The position numbers and the translations under genes were made by a program. The notes below the pieces were generated by a model. It had not been told where the DNA came from. It saw only the letters and a list, made by a program, of their open reading frames with translations, and did not search any database. This document shows positions 6,119 to 11,044 of a stretch of DNA of 18,004 nt, piece after piece; position 1 is the stretch's first letter, and each line of letters opens with the position of its first letter. The stretch comes from an uncultured bacterium (GTDB taxonomy: Bacteria > Bacillota > Clostridia > Christensenellales > Pumilibacteraceae). The stretch covers positions 1 through 18,004 of the forward strand of contig CATKFJ010000232.1 in NCBI GenBank assembly GCA_949747725.1, written 5' to 3'.

Positions 6119-6621
6119 GCGCTTACATTATCCCCATTCTGTTTTTGATAGTCTTGCTTCTGTCGTTTATCCGCCGCAAAGAACCGTACGGCGGTTTTAT
6201 AGACGGCGCGCGCCAAGCCGTGGATCTTACGATAAACGTTTTTCCCTACCTCCTCGCCGTTATGGTCGCCGTCGAAGCGTTCCGCGTATCGGGCGCGTCG
6301 GCTTATCTTGCGCAAGCGGTCGCACCCGTGCTTAACACCGTAGGTCTGCCCAAAGAACTCGCCGAGCTTTTACTGCTCCGCCCCGTATCGGGCGCAGGCT
6401 CGCTCGCCATACTCGACGGCATCTATACCGACTACGGCGCGGACAGCTATATCGGGCGGTGCGCGTCCGTCATATACGGCTCGAGCGAAACGATTTTCTA
6501 CATATCCACAATTTACTTCTCACAGTCGCACGTACGAAAACTGCGCTATGCGATTCCCGTCGCGCTCGTCGCAACTATAACGGGCTGTATCGTCGGGTGT
6601 TATCTATTAAGATTTTTTTGA
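6115..6621 (+). CDS. spmB: Spore maturation protein B (SpmB)
   Basis: The 168-residue membrane protein shows the SpmB pattern: hydrophobic N-terminus (4-18), KEPYGGFIDGARQAVDLTINV, then YLLAVMVAVEAFRVSGA, LLLRPVSGAGSLAIL (about 83-97) and YGSSETIFYISTIYFSQSHV (about 121-140), ending in a last membrane segment. The ATG at 6115 overlaps the spmA stop and has AAGGGGG about 7 bases upstream. The frame stays open further upstream, but only this start gives the family N-terminus. Its last 22 bp overlap the 3' end of the convergent membrane-protein gene of the A+T-rich segment, so that segment begins inside the spmB 3' end. Confidence 0.93.
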   Translation: MSAYIIPILFLIVLLLSFIRRKEPYGGFIDGARQAVDLTINVFPYLLAVMVAVEAFRVSGASAYLAQAVAPVLNTVGLPKELAELLLLRPVSGAGSLAILDGIYTDYGADSYIGRCASVIYGSSETIFYISTIYFSQSHVRKLRYAIPVALVATITGCIVGCYLLRFF

Positions 6622-7847
6622 CGCCTCGCCACGATCGTAACAATCGCAACAACAATAAGAACAGCGCAAGTGATTACAATACTAAAGATAACGACAGTTT
6701 TACTCACTCCGTCGTTAACATTCGCCGATGTATCGATCGGTTTTTCTGTCGCACCGAATGCAAAACAAAAATCTTCCGAAGTTTCCGCAGTACAAATCAA
6801 ACCGCTCTTTTCCGTTTTTATATTTGATTCTATAATATAAGGATTATCATCGTTCAATTTAACAGTATAATCTGTTTTATAATTTCCCGTTTGTTTATGT
6901 TCCACGGAATATATCAAAGAATTCGATATGTAATTGCGCTGCACTGTTATCGGCAATGTGTAATTTATTACCGCCTCTCTATCTATTGCCACAATAAATT
7001 TGTATGCGTTCAACCGAAGATAATCAATTGAATACAAAAACAGTTCGTCATATTTAATATACGAATTTCGTAGCAATAATTTATTAACTTCCGAATAGAA
7101 ATAATCTATAGGAACTCCTCCGTAGTCATCATAATAATATTTGAGCGATTCATATTGTTTGCATATATAATCTTTGCAAGTCATAATCTCGCTCCTATAT
7201 TCGCAACTGCTGTCAAACAAATGCTCCGTAAAATCGCCAAGCACAAAAAAGTTATAATACGGTTTTGAAAAAGCATTTCGAAAAGTCCAGCAATAATTAC
7301 CCTTTCCCATTTGAGATAATGCCGACTCATTGGAAGTTTCATAAATAAAGCTGTTGTTTTCTTTGAATGATAGCGAAATTGTTATTATCTCGCCGTTTGG
7401 AATAACGGAATAAAGCGTACCTATTATATTGTCGTCTAAAATAGGCGAAAAGTTATTTTCTATATCAAAACTATAATCTGTTTCCAATGTTTGATTACCA
7501 AACCAAACAGCGCCGTTCACCGCTTGACCGTTTAGCATTACGTTAAATTGAGGAACTTCTCTTGCCGTCGATATAAACGGAATTGCAAATTCTGCCTTAC
7601 TCATATCTTTATTCGCCGTTACCCTGTAATTCGCTTCTTTCAGACCTATTCCATGCGATAGCAACTCCGTATCTGTAAAATCAAAACTTACATCGCCGTC
7701 TATGACCATCTCGGAACAAGCGCAATAAAGTCCGTATGTCGGAATTCTTTTACTTAACGTTTGCGCATTGGCAAATACCGGAAAAACAGAATATAAAGTT
7801 ATTGAAAGTACGGTAAATATAATTACTGGTATTTTCTTATTTTTCAT
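6600..7847 (-). CDS. Exported protein with C-terminal membrane anchor, unknown family
   Basis: I do not recognise the family. The 415-residue product starts with a signal peptide (basic MKNKK, hydrophobic core to about residue 24, likely cleavage after FANA near 28). The middle reads as beta-rich: it has the stretches MVIDGDVSFDFTDTELL (47-63) and AEFAIPFISTAREVPQFNVMLNGQ (about 85-108), and a second block of strand-like sequence near 300-370. A hydrophobic segment at about 385-408 is followed by RRQKNLNR, so the protein is probably an outward-facing domain anchored by one C-terminal helix. It begins 1 bp after the SLOG gene stop, with GGGAG in the SLOG 3' end as ribosome site, so the two are coupled. 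Codon and base use is A+T rich, unlike the flanking genes. Its stop overlaps spmB by 22 bp. Confidence 0.75.
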   Translation of the reverse strand: MKNKKIPVIIFTVLSITLYSVFPVFANAQTLSKRIPTYGLYCACSEMVIDGDVSFDFTDTELLSHGIGLKEANYRVTANKDMSKAEFAIPFISTAREVPQFNVMLNGQAVNGAVWFGNQTLETDYSFDIENNFSPILDDNIIGTLYSVIPNGEIITISLSFKENNSFIYETSNESALSQMGKGNYCWTFRNAFSKPYYNFFVLGDFTEHLFDSSCEYRSEIMTCKDYICKQYESLKYYYDDYGGVPIDYFYSEVNKLLLRNSYIKYDELFLYSIDYLRLNAYKFIVAIDREAVINYTLPITVQRNYISNSLIYSVEHKQTGNYKTDYTVKLNDDNPYIIESNIKTEKSGLICTAETSEDFCFAFGATEKPIDTSANVNDGVSKTVVIFSIVITCAVLIVVAIVTIVARRQKNLNR

Positions 7848-7848
7848 A

Positions 7849-8316
7849 TTAGATAATCTCCCAACCGTCGATTATACTTATAATCGGCTTTTTCTTTTTA
7901 TAAGCATACTCGCAAGCCATATATGCTCCCCCGCAATGCGTTATCACTCCCGCAATGATAAAATCGGCAATATCGACTAACTGTTTATTGGTTTCTATGA
8001 TAGCCAATCGATTGGGCACTCTCCTTTCCAAAAGATAAACACTGTCGTCAAAACAACTCGGCAGACTAAATGAGTCATCTGAACTCTTTGTTTTTTCCGG
8101 AATGTATGACAACACCATAGTATTTTTCAAATGCGGATAAACGTCTTTCAATTCTTTTACCAAATAACTGCAATACACATCAAAATCACCGCGAAAACCC
8201 GAATAGAATTGAGTAACGCCTCTAGTTTCTATGATGTCTTTTAATATCAGCAAAAGTTTATCCCTGTATTGTTTAACATCCATATAGCGATGTCCGAAAA
8301 AAGCACATGATTTCAT
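7849..8316 (-). CDS. SLOG-superfamily nucleotide-binding protein (DUF1273/YpsA-like)
   Basis: The 155-residue protein looks like one Rossmann-like SLOG domain: MKSCAFFGHRY at the N-terminus, FYSGFRGDFDVYC (37-49) in place of the family's G-x-x-G-x-D loop, LKDVYPHLKNTMVLSYIPEK (56-75), and a C-terminal ITHCGGAYMACEYAYKKKKPI (125-145) with the GG turn. SLOG proteins (named after SMF/DprA and LOG) bind nucleotides or nucleotide-derived ligands, and several are linked to conflict systems; the ligand here is unknown. The ATG at 8316 is preferred over one 8 codons upstream because AAAGGAC lies about 9 bases before it and the motif begins at once. It is the first gene of a two-gene operon with the anchored exported protein and is divergent from a double-HTH regulator. 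Confidence 0.75.
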   Translation of the reverse strand: MKSCAFFGHRYMDVKQYRDKLLLILKDIIETRGVTQFYSGFRGDFDVYCSYLVKELKDVYPHLKNTMVLSYIPEKTKSSDDSFSLPSCFDDSVYLLERRVPNRLAIIETNKQLVDIADFIIAGVITHCGGAYMACEYAYKKKKPIISIIDGWEII

Positions 8317-8449: not shown

Positions 8450-8914
8450 ATGGCTATTTCGAAAGAGTTTCAAAAACGGTTTATAGAACTGACAAACGAT
8501 ATAGATGTAAAAAGCAAGGACAAGAAAGCCGAGGTAATAGGCATCAATCGTTCGACATTTTCAAACGCGTTTAATTATGGCATAGTTCCTAAAACTCCTT
8601 CTTTGATTCGCATTGCCGATTACTTTAATATATCGGTAGATTATTTGATAGCCAACACGAACGAAGACTATTTCGATAGGTCGACCCATCCTAAAAATTT
8701 TTTCGTGCGGCTGGAAGAACTGCGAATAGAGCACAACATCAAAACCAGATACGAATTAGCTCAAAAATTGCTTATTCACAGGAATAATATAGCCCAATGG
8801 TATAAATTAGATTGCTTGCCGTTGATTGACGATTTAATTATTATTGCAAGCTATTTTAACGTATCCGTAGACTATCTACTCGGCAGAACCGACGACAGAA
8901 CGCCTTTAAAATAA
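8450..8914 (+). CDS. Transcriptional regulator with two tandem XRE-type HTH domains
   Basis: The 154-residue protein contains two Cro/C1-type helix-turn-helix units. The first spans about 8-68 (KKAEVIGINRSTFSNAF, then IRIADYFNISVDYLI) and the second about 84-146 (TRYELAQKLLIHRNNIAQWY, then IIIASYFNVSVDYLLGRTD). Both end in the same YFN-x-SVDYL pattern, which points to an internal duplication. There is no other domain, so it may bind two half-sites as one chain. AAAGGGA precedes the ATG at 8450 by 7 bases. It is divergent from the SLOG operon and shares its A+T-rich composition. Likely a repressor acting on the palindromes in the intergenic region and perhaps on the RNA promoter downstream; that part is inference. 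Its stop codon overlaps the end of the convergent RNA gene. Confidence 0.85.
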   Translation: MAISKEFQKRFIELTNDIDVKSKDKKAEVIGINRSTFSNAFNYGIVPKTPSLIRIADYFNISVDYLIANTNEDYFDRSTHPKNFFVRLEELRIEHNIKTRYELAQKLLIHRNNIAQWYKLDCLPLIDDLIIIASYFNVSVDYLLGRTDDRTPLK

Positions 8915-8944
8915 AAAAGCGCTATCCCCTTGCGAGAACAGCGC
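8908..8944 (-). terminator. Intrinsic terminator of the candidate RNA
   Basis: Read on the minus strand, GCGCT (8944-8940) pairs with AGCGC (8923-8919), and inside it TTCTC pairs with GGGGA (with G-U pairs) around a GCAA tetraloop of the GNRA type. The stem is followed directly by TTTTTTATTTT (8918-8908). The run of T is on the minus side only, so it ends the minus-strand transcript, not the HTH gene. Confidence 0.75.
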
Positions 8945-9077
8945 CGCAGAATATACTGTTCATCGCTTAGTCGCCAAACCAAAATTACAATCCGCATGAG
9001 AATTGTAAACGATTACGAGTATAGTTCTACCTATAGCTATTCTCATGCGGAATAAAAATATGTAATTTTGGTTTGGC
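8912..9077 (-). ncRNA. Candidate structured non-coding RNA (about 166 nt), no known family recognised
   Basis: Three independent signals delimit it. A near-perfect promoter (TTGACA-17-TAAAAT, 9113-9085) predicts a start at 9078-9077, exactly the first base of a long hairpin. The hairpin (9077-8973) has a perfect 17-bp basal stem (GCCAAACCAAAATTACA, plus-strand 8973-8989, with 9061-9077), an asymmetric internal loop (10 versus 2 bases), a perfect 12-bp upper stem (CCGCATGAGAAT, 8992-9003, with 9039-9050) and a 35-base apical region with a small TATAG/CTATA helix. A 28-base linker then leads to an intrinsic terminator at 8944-8908. The RNA is convergent with the double-HTH gene and touches its stop codon. 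No conserved coding frame is evident. It does not match the layout I know for 6S, tmRNA, SRP or RNase P RNA, and there is no reverse transcriptase for a retron. Confidence 0.65.
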
Positions 9078-9084
9078 AATTACA

Positions 9085-9113
9085 ATTTTATCAAATATAT
9101 TTGTTTTTGTCAA
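9085..9113 (-). promoter_or_regulatory. Promoter of the candidate RNA
   Basis: On the minus strand a perfect TTGACA (9113-9108), a 17-base spacer and TAAAAT (9090-9085) give a start at about 9078. The 11-base direct repeat GGCAATTACAA (plus-strand reading) occurs at 9075-9085, covering the start site, and again at 9127-9137, just upstream of the -35. Confidence 0.75.
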
Positions 9114-9126
9114 TAAAAAGGCGATC

Positions 9127-9151
9127 GGCAATTACAAATGACAAATTGTAA
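9127..9151. promoter_or_regulatory. Operator-like palindrome upstream of the RNA promoter
   Basis: TTACAA (9132-9137) and TTGTAA (9146-9151) form an inverted repeat with an 8-base spacer, and the left half is part of the direct repeat GGCAATTACAA (9127-9137) that recurs at the RNA start site (9075-9085). Binding of a regulator to both copies would bracket the promoter. Which protein binds is unknown; the neighbouring double-HTH protein is the obvious candidate. Confidence 0.4.
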
Positions 9152-9337: not shown

Positions 9338-10336
9338 TTATTTGGCAAGCGAAACCGCAACGGCGCATGCAACGGTAGCGCCGACCATGGGGTTATTGCC
9401 CATACCGATAAGCCCCATCATTTCGACGTGCGCCGGCACGGAGCTACTGCCTGCGAACTGCGCGTCGCTATGCATACGACCCATGGTATCGGTCATGCCG
9501 TACGATGCCGGGCCGGCAGCTACTTTATCGGGGTCAAGGGTCCTGCCCGTACCGCCGCCGCTCGCTACCGAGAAATACTTTTTATCGTTTTCCTGACACC
9601 ATTTTTTATACGTACCGGCAACGGGGTGTTGGAAACGCGTGGGGTTGGTGGAGTTACCCGTGATCGATACGTCCACCTTTTCGTGACGCATGATCGCAAC
9701 GCCCTCGCTCACATCGTCGGCGCCGTAGCAGCGCACTTTTGCGCGCTCGCCGTCCGAGAACGGAACTTCGCGAACGATCTTAAGCTCGCCCGTAAAGTAG
9801 TCGTACTTTGTCTGAACATATGTAAACCCGTTGATACGCGAGATTATGTACGCCGCGTCCTTGCCCAAGCCGTTAAGTATGACGCGGAGCGGTTTTTTAC
9901 GCGCCTTGTTGGCGTTGCGCGCAATACCGATCGCGCCTTCCGCAGCAGCGAACGACTCGTGACCGGCGAGGAACGCAAAGCAATCCGTTTCTTCGCGGAG
10001 CAACATTGCCCCGAGATTGCCGTGTCCCAAACCGACTTTGCGCTGATCGGCGACACTGCCGGGGATACAGAACGACTGCAAGCCGATACCGATGCACTCG
10101 GCGGCGTCCGCGGCGGTCTTAACGCCCTTTTTGAACGCTATGGCGCAACCGACGGTGTACGCCCATACCGCGTTCTCGAACGCTATGGGCTGAACGCCTT
10201 TTACGATCTCTTCCACATTGACACCGCGTTTAAGGCAGATGTCGCGCGCGTCCTCGAGGGACTTGATGCCATAGTTTTTAAGCTCGGCATTTATCTTATC
10301 TATTCTTCTTTCGTATCCTTCGAATGTAACAGCCAT
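9338..10336 (-). CDS. GGGtGRT protein (conserved, function unknown)
   Basis: The 332-residue protein carries the eponymous motif SGGGTGRTLDPDK at about 259-271, followed by GMTDTMGRMHSDAQFAG and a glycine-rich C-terminus. Other conserved-looking parts are FENAVWAYTVGCAIAFKKG (about 53-71), GLGHGNLGAMLLREETDCFAFLAGHESFAAAEGAIG (about 102-137) and IISRINGFTYVQTKYDYFTG. I know the family only as an uncharacterised protein encoded next to a NifU-like scaffold protein, as here: the upstream gene ends 15 bp before this ATG. GGAGGG lies 7 bases before the start at 10336. It has no membrane segment and no Cys cluster. A role in handling an Fe-S cluster or a small metabolite together with its partner is plausible but unproven. 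Confidence 0.85.
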   Translation of the reverse strand: MAVTFEGYERRIDKINAELKNYGIKSLEDARDICLKRGVNVEEIVKGVQPIAFENAVWAYTVGCAIAFKKGVKTAADAAECIGIGLQSFCIPGSVADQRKVGLGHGNLGAMLLREETDCFAFLAGHESFAAAEGAIGIARNANKARKKPLRVILNGLGKDAAYIISRINGFTYVQTKYDYFTGELKIVREVPFSDGERAKVRCYGADDVSEGVAIMRHEKVDVSITGNSTNPTRFQHPVAGTYKKWCQENDKKYFSVASGGGTGRTLDPDKVAAGPASYGMTDTMGRMHSDAQFAGSSSVPAHVEMMGLIGMGNNPMVGATVACAVAVSLAK

Positions 10337-10351
10337 GATTATTCCCTCCTA

Positions 10352-11044
10352 CTACTCGTTGCGCGGCACTATATACTTAGCCGCGTTTTCGAATCTGCCG
10401 TAATGCTTTTTGGACTTTTCGAGCGCGTCGTTGCCGCTCATGCCCTCTTGCACGTATTTCATAAGCAAGCCGAGGTTGACATACTCATAGCCGGTGATCT
10501 CGCCGTTCTTGTCGAGCGCAAGACGCGTGACATAGCCTTCCGCCATTTCGAGATAGCGCGGTCCTTTGAGCTTGGTCGAGTACATTGTACCCACCTGCGA
10601 GCGCAAGCCTTTGCCGAGATCCTCGAGTCCCGCGCCTACGGGCAGACCCGCGTCGGAGAACGCCGATTGCGTTCTGCCGTAAACTATCTGTAAAAACAGC
10701 TCGCGCATTGCCACGTTAATGGCGTCGCAAACAAGATCGGTATTGACCGCCTCGAGCAACGTCTTGCCGGGCAGAATTTCCGCCGCCATAGCCGCCGAGT
10801 GCGTCATACCCGAGCAGCCGATCGTTTCGACCAGCGCTTCCTCGATAACGCCGTTCTTGATGTTGAGCGTAAGCTTACACGTGCCCTGTTGGGGCGCGCA
10901 GCAACCGCAGCCGTGCTTAAGTCCGCTGATATCCTTGATATCATAGGCTTGAACCCACTTGCCCTCTTCGGGAATGGGAGCAGGACCGTGATTGCAACCT
11001 TTTGCAACGCACTGCATGTTTTCCACTTCGCGTGAATATTGCAT
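10352..11044 (-). CDS. NifU-like Fe-S cluster scaffold protein, partner of GGGtGRT
   Basis: The 230-residue protein resembles the NifU/IscU N-terminal scaffold fold in its central part (CKLTLNIKNGVIEEALVETIGCSGMTHSAAMAAEIL, about 56-91) but has an unusually Cys-rich N-terminus: Cys12, Cys17, Cys46, Cys48, Cys49 (HGCGCC), Cys56, Cys77 and Cys106. That suggests it binds an Fe-S cluster or metal stably and is not an ordinary transfer scaffold. The C-terminal third (KLKGPRYLEMAEGYVTRLALDKNGEITGYEYVN) is absent from IscU. The ATG at 11044 follows GGAGGATTTT. It is the first gene of a two-gene operon; the promoter at 11117-11145 precedes it by about 70 bp. The pairing with GGGtGRT is characteristic; the function of the pair is not known to me. 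Confidence 0.82.
   Translation of the reverse strand: MQYSREVENMQCVAKGCNHGPAPIPEEGKWVQAYDIKDISGLKHGCGCCAPQQGTCKLTLNIKNGVIEEALVETIGCSGMTHSAAMAAEILPGKTLLEAVNTDLVCDAINVAMRELFLQIVYGRTQSAFSDAGLPVGAGLEDLGKGLRSQVGTMYSTKLKGPRYLEMAEGYVTRLALDKNGEITGYEYVNLGLLMKYVQEGMSGNDALEKSKKHYGRFENAAKYIVPRNE

Follow-up and report, generated by a model that had tools for sequence, protein, structure and literature searches.

A probable family of cis-regulatory leader RNAs in front of SLOG and other genes in gut Clostridia

What is a strongly folded RNA with its own promoter doing beside the genes for a double-HTH regulator and a SLOG protein? The question arises from the window, an 18,004-nt stretch of DNA (contig CATKFJ010000232.1) from an uncultured bacterium of the Pumilibacteraceae. 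An initial annotation, made from the letters alone, had read the RNA as a stand-alone gene without a recognised family, perhaps the RNA part of a system with its two neighbours. The comparative analysis described here leads us to regard the window RNA as a likely member of a new cis-regulatory leader family, acting as an attenuator of transcription (and partly of translation) with a strong promoter of its own.

The RNA unit in the window

The features on which the discussion draws are the following, in the order in which the RNA strand is read.

9085..9113, minus: sigma-70 promoter TTGACA-17-TAAAAT with TG before the -10 hexamer (extended -10), 11 of 12 consensus bases
8912..9077, minus: structured RNA of 166 nt, probable leader, from its fold and its covariance-model match
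9061..9077, minus: 5' strand of the outer stem P1, from the minimum free energy (MFE) fold and covariation; begins about at the predicted +1
9039..9051, minus: 5' strand of the inner stem P2, from the MFE fold and covariation
9017..9031, minus: apical loop GGUAGAACUAUACUC, 5' partner of the predicted pseudoknot PK1
8991..9003, minus: 3' strand of P2, from the MFE fold and covariation
8973..8989, minus: 3' strand of P1, from the MFE fold and covariation
8955..8966, minus: 5' strand of the predicted antiterminator, GCGA-U-GAACAGU, from the antiterminator hairpin (-12.5 kcal/mol), family-wide duplex tests and a weaker column test
8946..8960, minus: 3' half of the linker, AACAGUAUAUUCUGC, 3' partner of PK1
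8932..8942, minus: 3' strand of the predicted antiterminator, GCUGUUCUCGC, part of the terminator 5' arm and loop
8913..8945, minus: intrinsic terminator with a 12-bp stem (-18.4 kcal/mol), GCAA loop and U run (T run in the DNA)
8450..8914, plus: double-HTH repressor-like protein of 154 aa, HTH families in Pfam; its 3' end abuts the RNA 3' end
7849..8316, minus (the RNA strand): SLOG (YpsA-like) protein, about 0.6 kb from the RNA 3' end; weak Pfam YpsA match, below the cut-off
6600..7847, minus: 415-aa protein downstream of SLOG, exported and membrane-anchored by eye

Much of the original description of the unit stands. The promoter ends 7 nt ahead of position 9077, the first base of the hairpin, which is where the initial annotation had placed the start of transcription. 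The hairpin is 105 nt long, and in the MFE fold of 8912-9077 its outer stem has the 17 bp first given; the inner stem has 13 bp rather than 12, and the internal loop is 9/1 (5'/3') rather than 10/2. That the fold goes beyond chance can be seen from its energy, -68.3 kcal/mol compared to a mean of -34.7 for shuffled sequences (z -8.6), with none of 200 shuffles as good, and from the recurrence of promoter, stems and terminator across many genomes, with compensatory changes. The GNRA-looped terminator with its T run (8945-8913) does end a unit of about 166 nt. Within it, the motif AAGGGG resembles the Shine-Dalgarno sequence of relatives in which a SLOG gene follows directly. The A+T-rich character of the segment is real as well, with a GC content of 0.32-0.40 vs mostly 0.42-0.60.

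Short reading frames were considered as leader peptides and set aside. A 28-codon frame beginning with ATG was noted by eye in the hairpin and not taken as coding, and neither was an ORF that some relatives have over linker and terminator, since its frame differs in L077 and it meets a stop in L071 (both by eye).

Distribution of the RNA and the genes behind it

The claim that the RNA belongs to no recognised family agrees with scans against Rfam (15), which covered, of all RNA loci, the window and 20 loci at gathering score and 15 loci at lax thresholds. At gathering score the RNA was unmatched across the whole window and the 20 loci, and only tRNAs were returned. When E values up to 5 were allowed on 8880-9140, there were four weak matches, the best of which (E = 0.018) reached 23.6 bits where the gathering score is 211 and was for that reason taken as chance; at E <= 0.5, the 15 loci gave tRNAs and a few weak matches, none overlapping the RNA. 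Among the papers listed by title and keyword searches, none linked SLOG, DUF1273 or YpsA to a riboswitch, leader RNA or noncoding RNA. A survey of structured RNAs in the gut reports 3161 candidates from intergenic regions of human-microbiome bacteria; SLOG, YpsA, lipoprotein and DprA do not appear in its main text, and a fragment of the present family may be among its candidates. Within these Rfam 15 scans and literature searches, the family is apparently undescribed.

The RNA had no blastn match in the phage or the plasmid collection. Viral contigs scanned with a DNA pattern yielded a single locus, L036, and none when scanned for close SLOG relatives. Beside the RNA of L036 lie what resemble, by eye, a Y-family (UmuC/DinB-type) polymerase (834-2330) and a YolD-like protein (2327-2734), a pairing known from mobile elements.

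Among 74 genomes of the Pumilibacteraceae, a DNA search returned one homologue, L026, on a 7528-bp contig from another genus. Its stem sequences differ from those of the window; its promoter, fold and neighbours (a convergent double-HTH gene and SLOG) are alike. Scans based on a SLOG alignment and on a loop pattern added L028, L029 (on the same contig as L067) and L036. When 396 genomes of the order were searched with a sequence-only model built from these four and the window, 32 had a match (E <= 0.01), six of them weakly (E 0.0026-0.008) and left aside. A covariance model was then built from 11 sequences. It did not confirm L094, one of the loci of the sequence-only model, and it matched L097 at E = 0.003 only; on the window, itself one of the 11 sequences, it gives 162.7 bits over 8906-9077.

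At E <= 0.001 the covariance model found the RNA in 19/41, 57/151 and 7/46 genomes of three families of the order. In a family outside the order, 4/16 genomes matched. In a sample of the class (E <= 0.01), 9 of 391 genomes matched, six within the order and three outside, and in a sample of the phylum that served as a specificity control, the single match in 388 genomes was the window's own genome, the other 387 having none. The most matches in one genome were nine (G175), tandem copies counted. The family is frequent in families of the same order and sporadic outside it. For the analyses below, 98 sources were used; duplicate loci, L094 and L097 were left out, and matches without a locus in the three-family scans are not included. 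These sources hold 114 matches, from which two antisense palindromes (window plus strand, L152 minus strand) and one duplicate (L172) were removed, leaving 111 distinct RNAs, the window included and 11 of them used to build the model.

What follows these RNAs? In 80 of the 111, an ORF on the same strand starts at most 120 nt downstream; 26 of these are SLOG genes, 24 are of the lipobox type (a few doubtful), 9 have a zinc-ribbon N-terminus and 21 are other ORFs of at least 60 aa. Another seven RNAs, the window among them, have a SLOG gene at 173-636 nt, and 24 of the 111 have none of these gene starts. Within the 1.2 kb searched, a same-strand SLOG gene was found behind 33 of the 111 RNAs, the commonest single downstream class and a lower bound, since L098 and the last L090 copy end 68 nt past the RNA and the SLOG gene of L067 lies beyond 1.2 kb. 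A non-SLOG ORF of at least 60 aa starts within 120 nt of 54/111 RNAs. The downstream SLOG proteins are divergent, with 24-26% identity to the window SLOG between groups. Zinc-ribbon proteins beginning like MNKCSKCGTEFEG were seen behind the RNA in L112, L116, L117, L120, L123, L127, L135 and L138.

A stricter count gives the same picture with controls. Of the 98 RNAs with enough flank, 67 have an ORF of at least 100 aa that starts at -12 to +120 nt from their end, compared to 7/98 for divergent upstream starts and 35/98 for an arbitrary upstream window on the same strand, and the family as a whole has in this respect the 5' position of cis-acting attenuators. The RNA copies are probably for the most part leaders, and the description of the window RNA as stand-alone is not confirmed and probably wrong, most copies having a same-strand ORF closely behind. 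The proposed membership in an HTH/SLOG system fares better in part: the linkage is recurrent, but it is not specific, as copies also precede lipobox-type, zinc-ribbon and other genes.

The start of translation may be involved as well. In 17 SLOG copies the start codon abuts the U-run. None of these 17 has a Shine-Dalgarno sequence in the usual place (<= 14 nt), and in 16 of them a Shine-Dalgarno-like sequence lies up to 26 nt upstream, inside the terminator hairpin. Of 60 other copies, nine of them with a more distant SLOG start, 45 carry such a sequence at the usual spacing.

Competing helices and how they may act

The initial annotation had named compensatory changes in the stems as supporting evidence, and the homologues have them. 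Column tests, here and below, used all 113 distinct rows, the two antisense palindromes included. In an alignment that was fitted to this structure, 40 of the 41 base pairs in the nested stems have double changes, compared to a shuffled mean of 34.6, and 91.8% of the cells are paired vs 63.8% when shuffled and 39-51% when slid.

Two further helices, both absent from the structure of the covariance model, involve the linker between hairpin and terminator. In PK1, the apical loop (GGUAG...) pairs with the 3' half of the linker (...UUCUAC); in the antiterminator, the 5' half of the linker pairs with the 5' arm and loop of the terminator. The stabilities of antiterminator and terminator were compared in 108 RNAs (three copies with a short apical loop left out), and permutation and shuffled-linker tests were run on 94 (14 further similar copies left out). 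The PK1 duplex has -13.6 kcal/mol with the RNA's own partner vs -9.1 with the partners of other copies, below all 2000 permutations (n = 94). The own partner ranks first in 8/94 with a median rank of 8, and with shuffled linkers the value is -6.6 kcal/mol, the own duplex falling below the shuffled mean in 93/94. The antiterminator behaves alike: -13.2 for own vs -8.6 kcal/mol for cross pairs, again below all 2000 permutations (n = 94), the own partner first in 11/94 with a median rank of 7, -6.6 kcal/mol with shuffled linkers, and the own duplex below the shuffled mean in 94/94.

The column tests on these two helices are to be read with the fact that their columns were picked from duplexes of the same sequences. 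For PK1, 88.5% of cells are paired vs 84.7% when shuffled; sliding the columns by one leaves 18.6-21.8% paired, and sliding by -2 still 74.4%. Double changes occur in 9 of its 11 pairs, which 8 of 500 shuffles achieve, and in 50 cells vs 19.3 when shuffled. For the antiterminator the test is weak, with 79.5% of cells paired vs 75.3% shuffled and 35 double-change cells vs 14.3, and columns slid by +1 give more (44). Taken with an alignment fitted to the nested stems and columns chosen from the sequences themselves, these results indicate a conserved secondary structure with compensatory changes.

The antiterminator would take at least three bases of the terminator stem in 89/94 RNAs and overlap PK1 by at least two linker bases in 66/94. 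As far as sequence can tell, a competing antiterminator and terminator, with a rival pseudoknot, is present in nearly all copies. In the window, PK1 and the terminator use separate bases and the antiterminator draws on bases of both; the predicted energies are -18.4 kcal/mol for the terminator, -12.5 for the antiterminator hairpin and -11.1 for PK1. Across the family the antiterminator is more stable than the terminator in 13 of 108 RNAs only, and because it is not the stabler in the other 95, opening the terminator would need a trigger or kinetics.

How could such a switch work? Transcription would begin about where P1 does, and the P1/P2 hairpin would then present its apical loop. In one outcome, the 3' half of the linker would pair with this loop (PK1), the terminator would form and the gene would be off. 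In the other, where PK1 is prevented or delayed, the linker's 5' half would pair with the terminator 5' arm and loop, and the terminator would be undone; the downstream gene would then be transcribed and, in members followed directly by SLOG, the Shine-Dalgarno sequence would be freed too. The simplest logic would be PK1 plus terminator for off and antiterminator for on. In the window, read-through would run antisense over the HTH gene and then into the SLOG and membrane-protein genes, and it could raise SLOG and lower HTH together. Support for the attenuator reading comes from the promoter and the terminator, from the two rival helices and from the place that most copies take ahead of a gene; the switching itself, a trigger, the default state and the control of SLOG by the window copy are what we infer from them. 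With every base of the switching helices assigned, reporters could put the mechanism to a direct test.

Riboswitch-type attenuators are known for a 5' position, a conserved and covarying fold, a pseudoknot, a competing antiterminator and terminator, and functionally diverse targets. The present family is like them, orphan candidates included, in all of these class features. It differs in having no Rfam family match in the loci scanned and, by eye, few invariant unpaired bases, and hence no obvious ligand pocket. Its copies also bring their own promoter, P1 begins about at +1, and the competitor of the antiterminator is a pseudoknot between loop and linker. T-box leaders likewise have a competing terminator and antiterminator, as this family does, but no T-box match was returned by Rfam in the loci scanned and no T-box sequence was seen by eye. 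The best reading is an attenuator class with an architecture of its own.

One could go further and consider the family a portable cassette of promoter and switch, that is, a new riboswitch class apart from the Rfam families, responding to a single signal (perhaps derived from a nucleotide, like the ligands of SLOG proteins) and co-ordinating SLOG and cell-surface proteins in gut Clostridia, with the window's sub-clade rewired so that read-through yields both SLOG transcription and an antisense RNA to the repressor gene. This extension is tentative and more apt to be wrong than right. SLOG relatives that sense nucleotides function in phage defence, for example ThsA of Thoeris (PMC11204291). If the attenuator reading is true, a frequent, multi-copy class of regulatory RNA, linked to SLOG proteins, would be added for a group of mostly uncultured Clostridia, and the target genes common to its copies would be a route to finding the trigger.

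Other readings and the window's own copy

Do these RNAs need the genes behind them? The window RNA could instead be a free, trans-acting small RNA of 166 nt, made abundantly, ended by a strong terminator and directed at other mRNAs or at a protein; the adjacent genes would not be its targets. Like small RNA genes, it has its own promoter and terminator. Promoter-like sites (at least 9 of 12) precede 82/111 copies vs 26/535 control windows, the -10 hexamer stands 6-7 nt from the matched start in 17 of 30 copies checked, and terminators are part of the model. Tandem copies, 23 in all at 9 of 97 loci, are unusual for a simple leader, and a promoter scoring 10-11 of 12 accompanies 15 of the 23. 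Of the four copies in L090, three precede an ATG-TAA and no gene. As to the window, an antisense gene comes next, and the gap between HTH and SLOG has a promoter-like site (8417-8389, 10/12; two sites were found where 1.1 are expected), so SLOG expression may also be independent of the RNA; with SLOG some 0.6 kb off, an antisense gene between and a promoter-like site of its own, the window copy could act as a free small RNA. A free RNA, however, would have no need for a linker whose 5' half is complementary to the terminator arm. Against it stand also the Shine-Dalgarno sequence inside the terminator where the start codon abuts (16/17) and the excess of same-strand ORF starts within 120 nt over the arbitrary upstream window (67/98 vs 35/98). 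We consider it unlikely, though less so for the window copy and for tandem arrays.

Tandem arrays of two to four RNA copies were seen at L090:4727-5683, L096:4026-5145, L145:1022-1668, L150:1278-1879 and L067:4714-5119. The first three of the four copies in L090 each have the ATG-TAA behind them, and in L096 truncated SLOG genes stand behind the first two; promoters were noted further upstream in both, by eye.

Type III toxin-antitoxin loci consist of a promoter, a pseudoknotted RNA (sometimes repeated), a terminator and a protein gene. This order, with tandem copies at times, is that of the present loci, and SLOG as the commonest downstream class would be the obvious protein, which the pseudoknotted RNA would bind and silence while the terminator set the ratio of RNA to mRNA. 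In ToxIN, the RNA ToxI is a co-transcribed pseudoknot (PMC5772629). The likeness ends with the proteins: those behind the present RNAs (SLOG, lipobox-type, zinc-ribbon and others) include none recognised as ToxN-like, no endoribonuclease toxin family of the ToxN/CptN/TenpN kind was matched by the SLOG, HTH and membrane proteins, which were the ones scanned, and these proteins gave YpsA/SLOG, HTH or nothing above cut-off. Many tandem copies also differ in having promoters of their own. In one family, relatives of SLOG (E <= 1e-6) occur in 12/19 RNA-bearing and 10/22 RNA-free genomes, and 7/19 RNA-bearing genomes have none; six SLOG relatives (L030-L035) have no covariance-model match in the sequence stretches scanned around them. 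SLOG was accordingly rejected as a trans-acting partner. With no association between SLOG and the RNA, and a different ORF within 120 nt of 54/111 RNAs, an antitoxin or otherwise SLOG-dependent RNA is disfavoured, and the RNA antitoxin that the initial annotation had offered as one option is now very improbable.

Scarcely credible is a mobile or other DNA palindrome (of the MITE type, or serving the HTH protein as operator) with the RNA fold as a by-product: the long inverted repeat, an antisense strand that also scores (28.2 bits) and the A+T-rich segment would suit it, but the window's own genome (79% complete) has a single copy, no target-site duplication was seen by eye, the pairing of loop, linker and terminator is left unexplained, and this pairing, with a conserved promoter, linker and terminator, would be meaningful only in an RNA read on one strand.

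Returning to the leader family, the window copy belongs to a sub-clade in which an HTH gene on the opposite strand stands between the RNA and a SLOG gene on the RNA strand. This order is found in the window, L026, L028, L067 and L068; among the genomes of one family, the presence of SLOG is not associated with that of the RNA. HTH genes of this type are found at 7/98 RNA loci. In four of the five loci the 3' ends of HTH gene and RNA coincide or lie a few bases apart, and L067 has a second RNA copy between. L171 has RNA and HTH in a stretch that ends there, and L036 has a different order. The HTH protein of the window is RstR-like, under the NCBIfam cut-off, and within the sub-clade it is a possible partner of the RNA. 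The window SLOG is 68% identical to its homologue in L026 and shares one profile with relatives above the YpsA cut-off (L072). The 415-aa protein has no Pfam or NCBIfam family; it has relatives near the RNA in L036 and L067.

A sub-clade with GAGUAUAGU...ACUAUACUC arms (window 9017-9044, imperfect there) could form a local hairpin in the apical loop, which would rival PK1.

A hint of how the window arrangement arose comes from L091, a locus of the same family in another genus, where the RNA sits between a GGGtGRT-like gene (by eye) and a SLOG gene that abuts the terminator; in the window, the distance from a GGGtGRT gene to the RNA is about 0.25 kb. The sub-clade likely began with a direct leader of this kind, RNA followed by SLOG, and an HTH gene then came in between. 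From its sequence, the window copy would be a rewired member of the family whose dependent gene may be SLOG. Upstream of the RNA and on the same strand, the GGGtGRT gene of the window is accompanied by a NifU-like gene (below cut-off), the two spanning 9338-11044, and by eye L091, too, has a GGGtGRT and NifU-like pair upstream of its RNA and SLOG gene.
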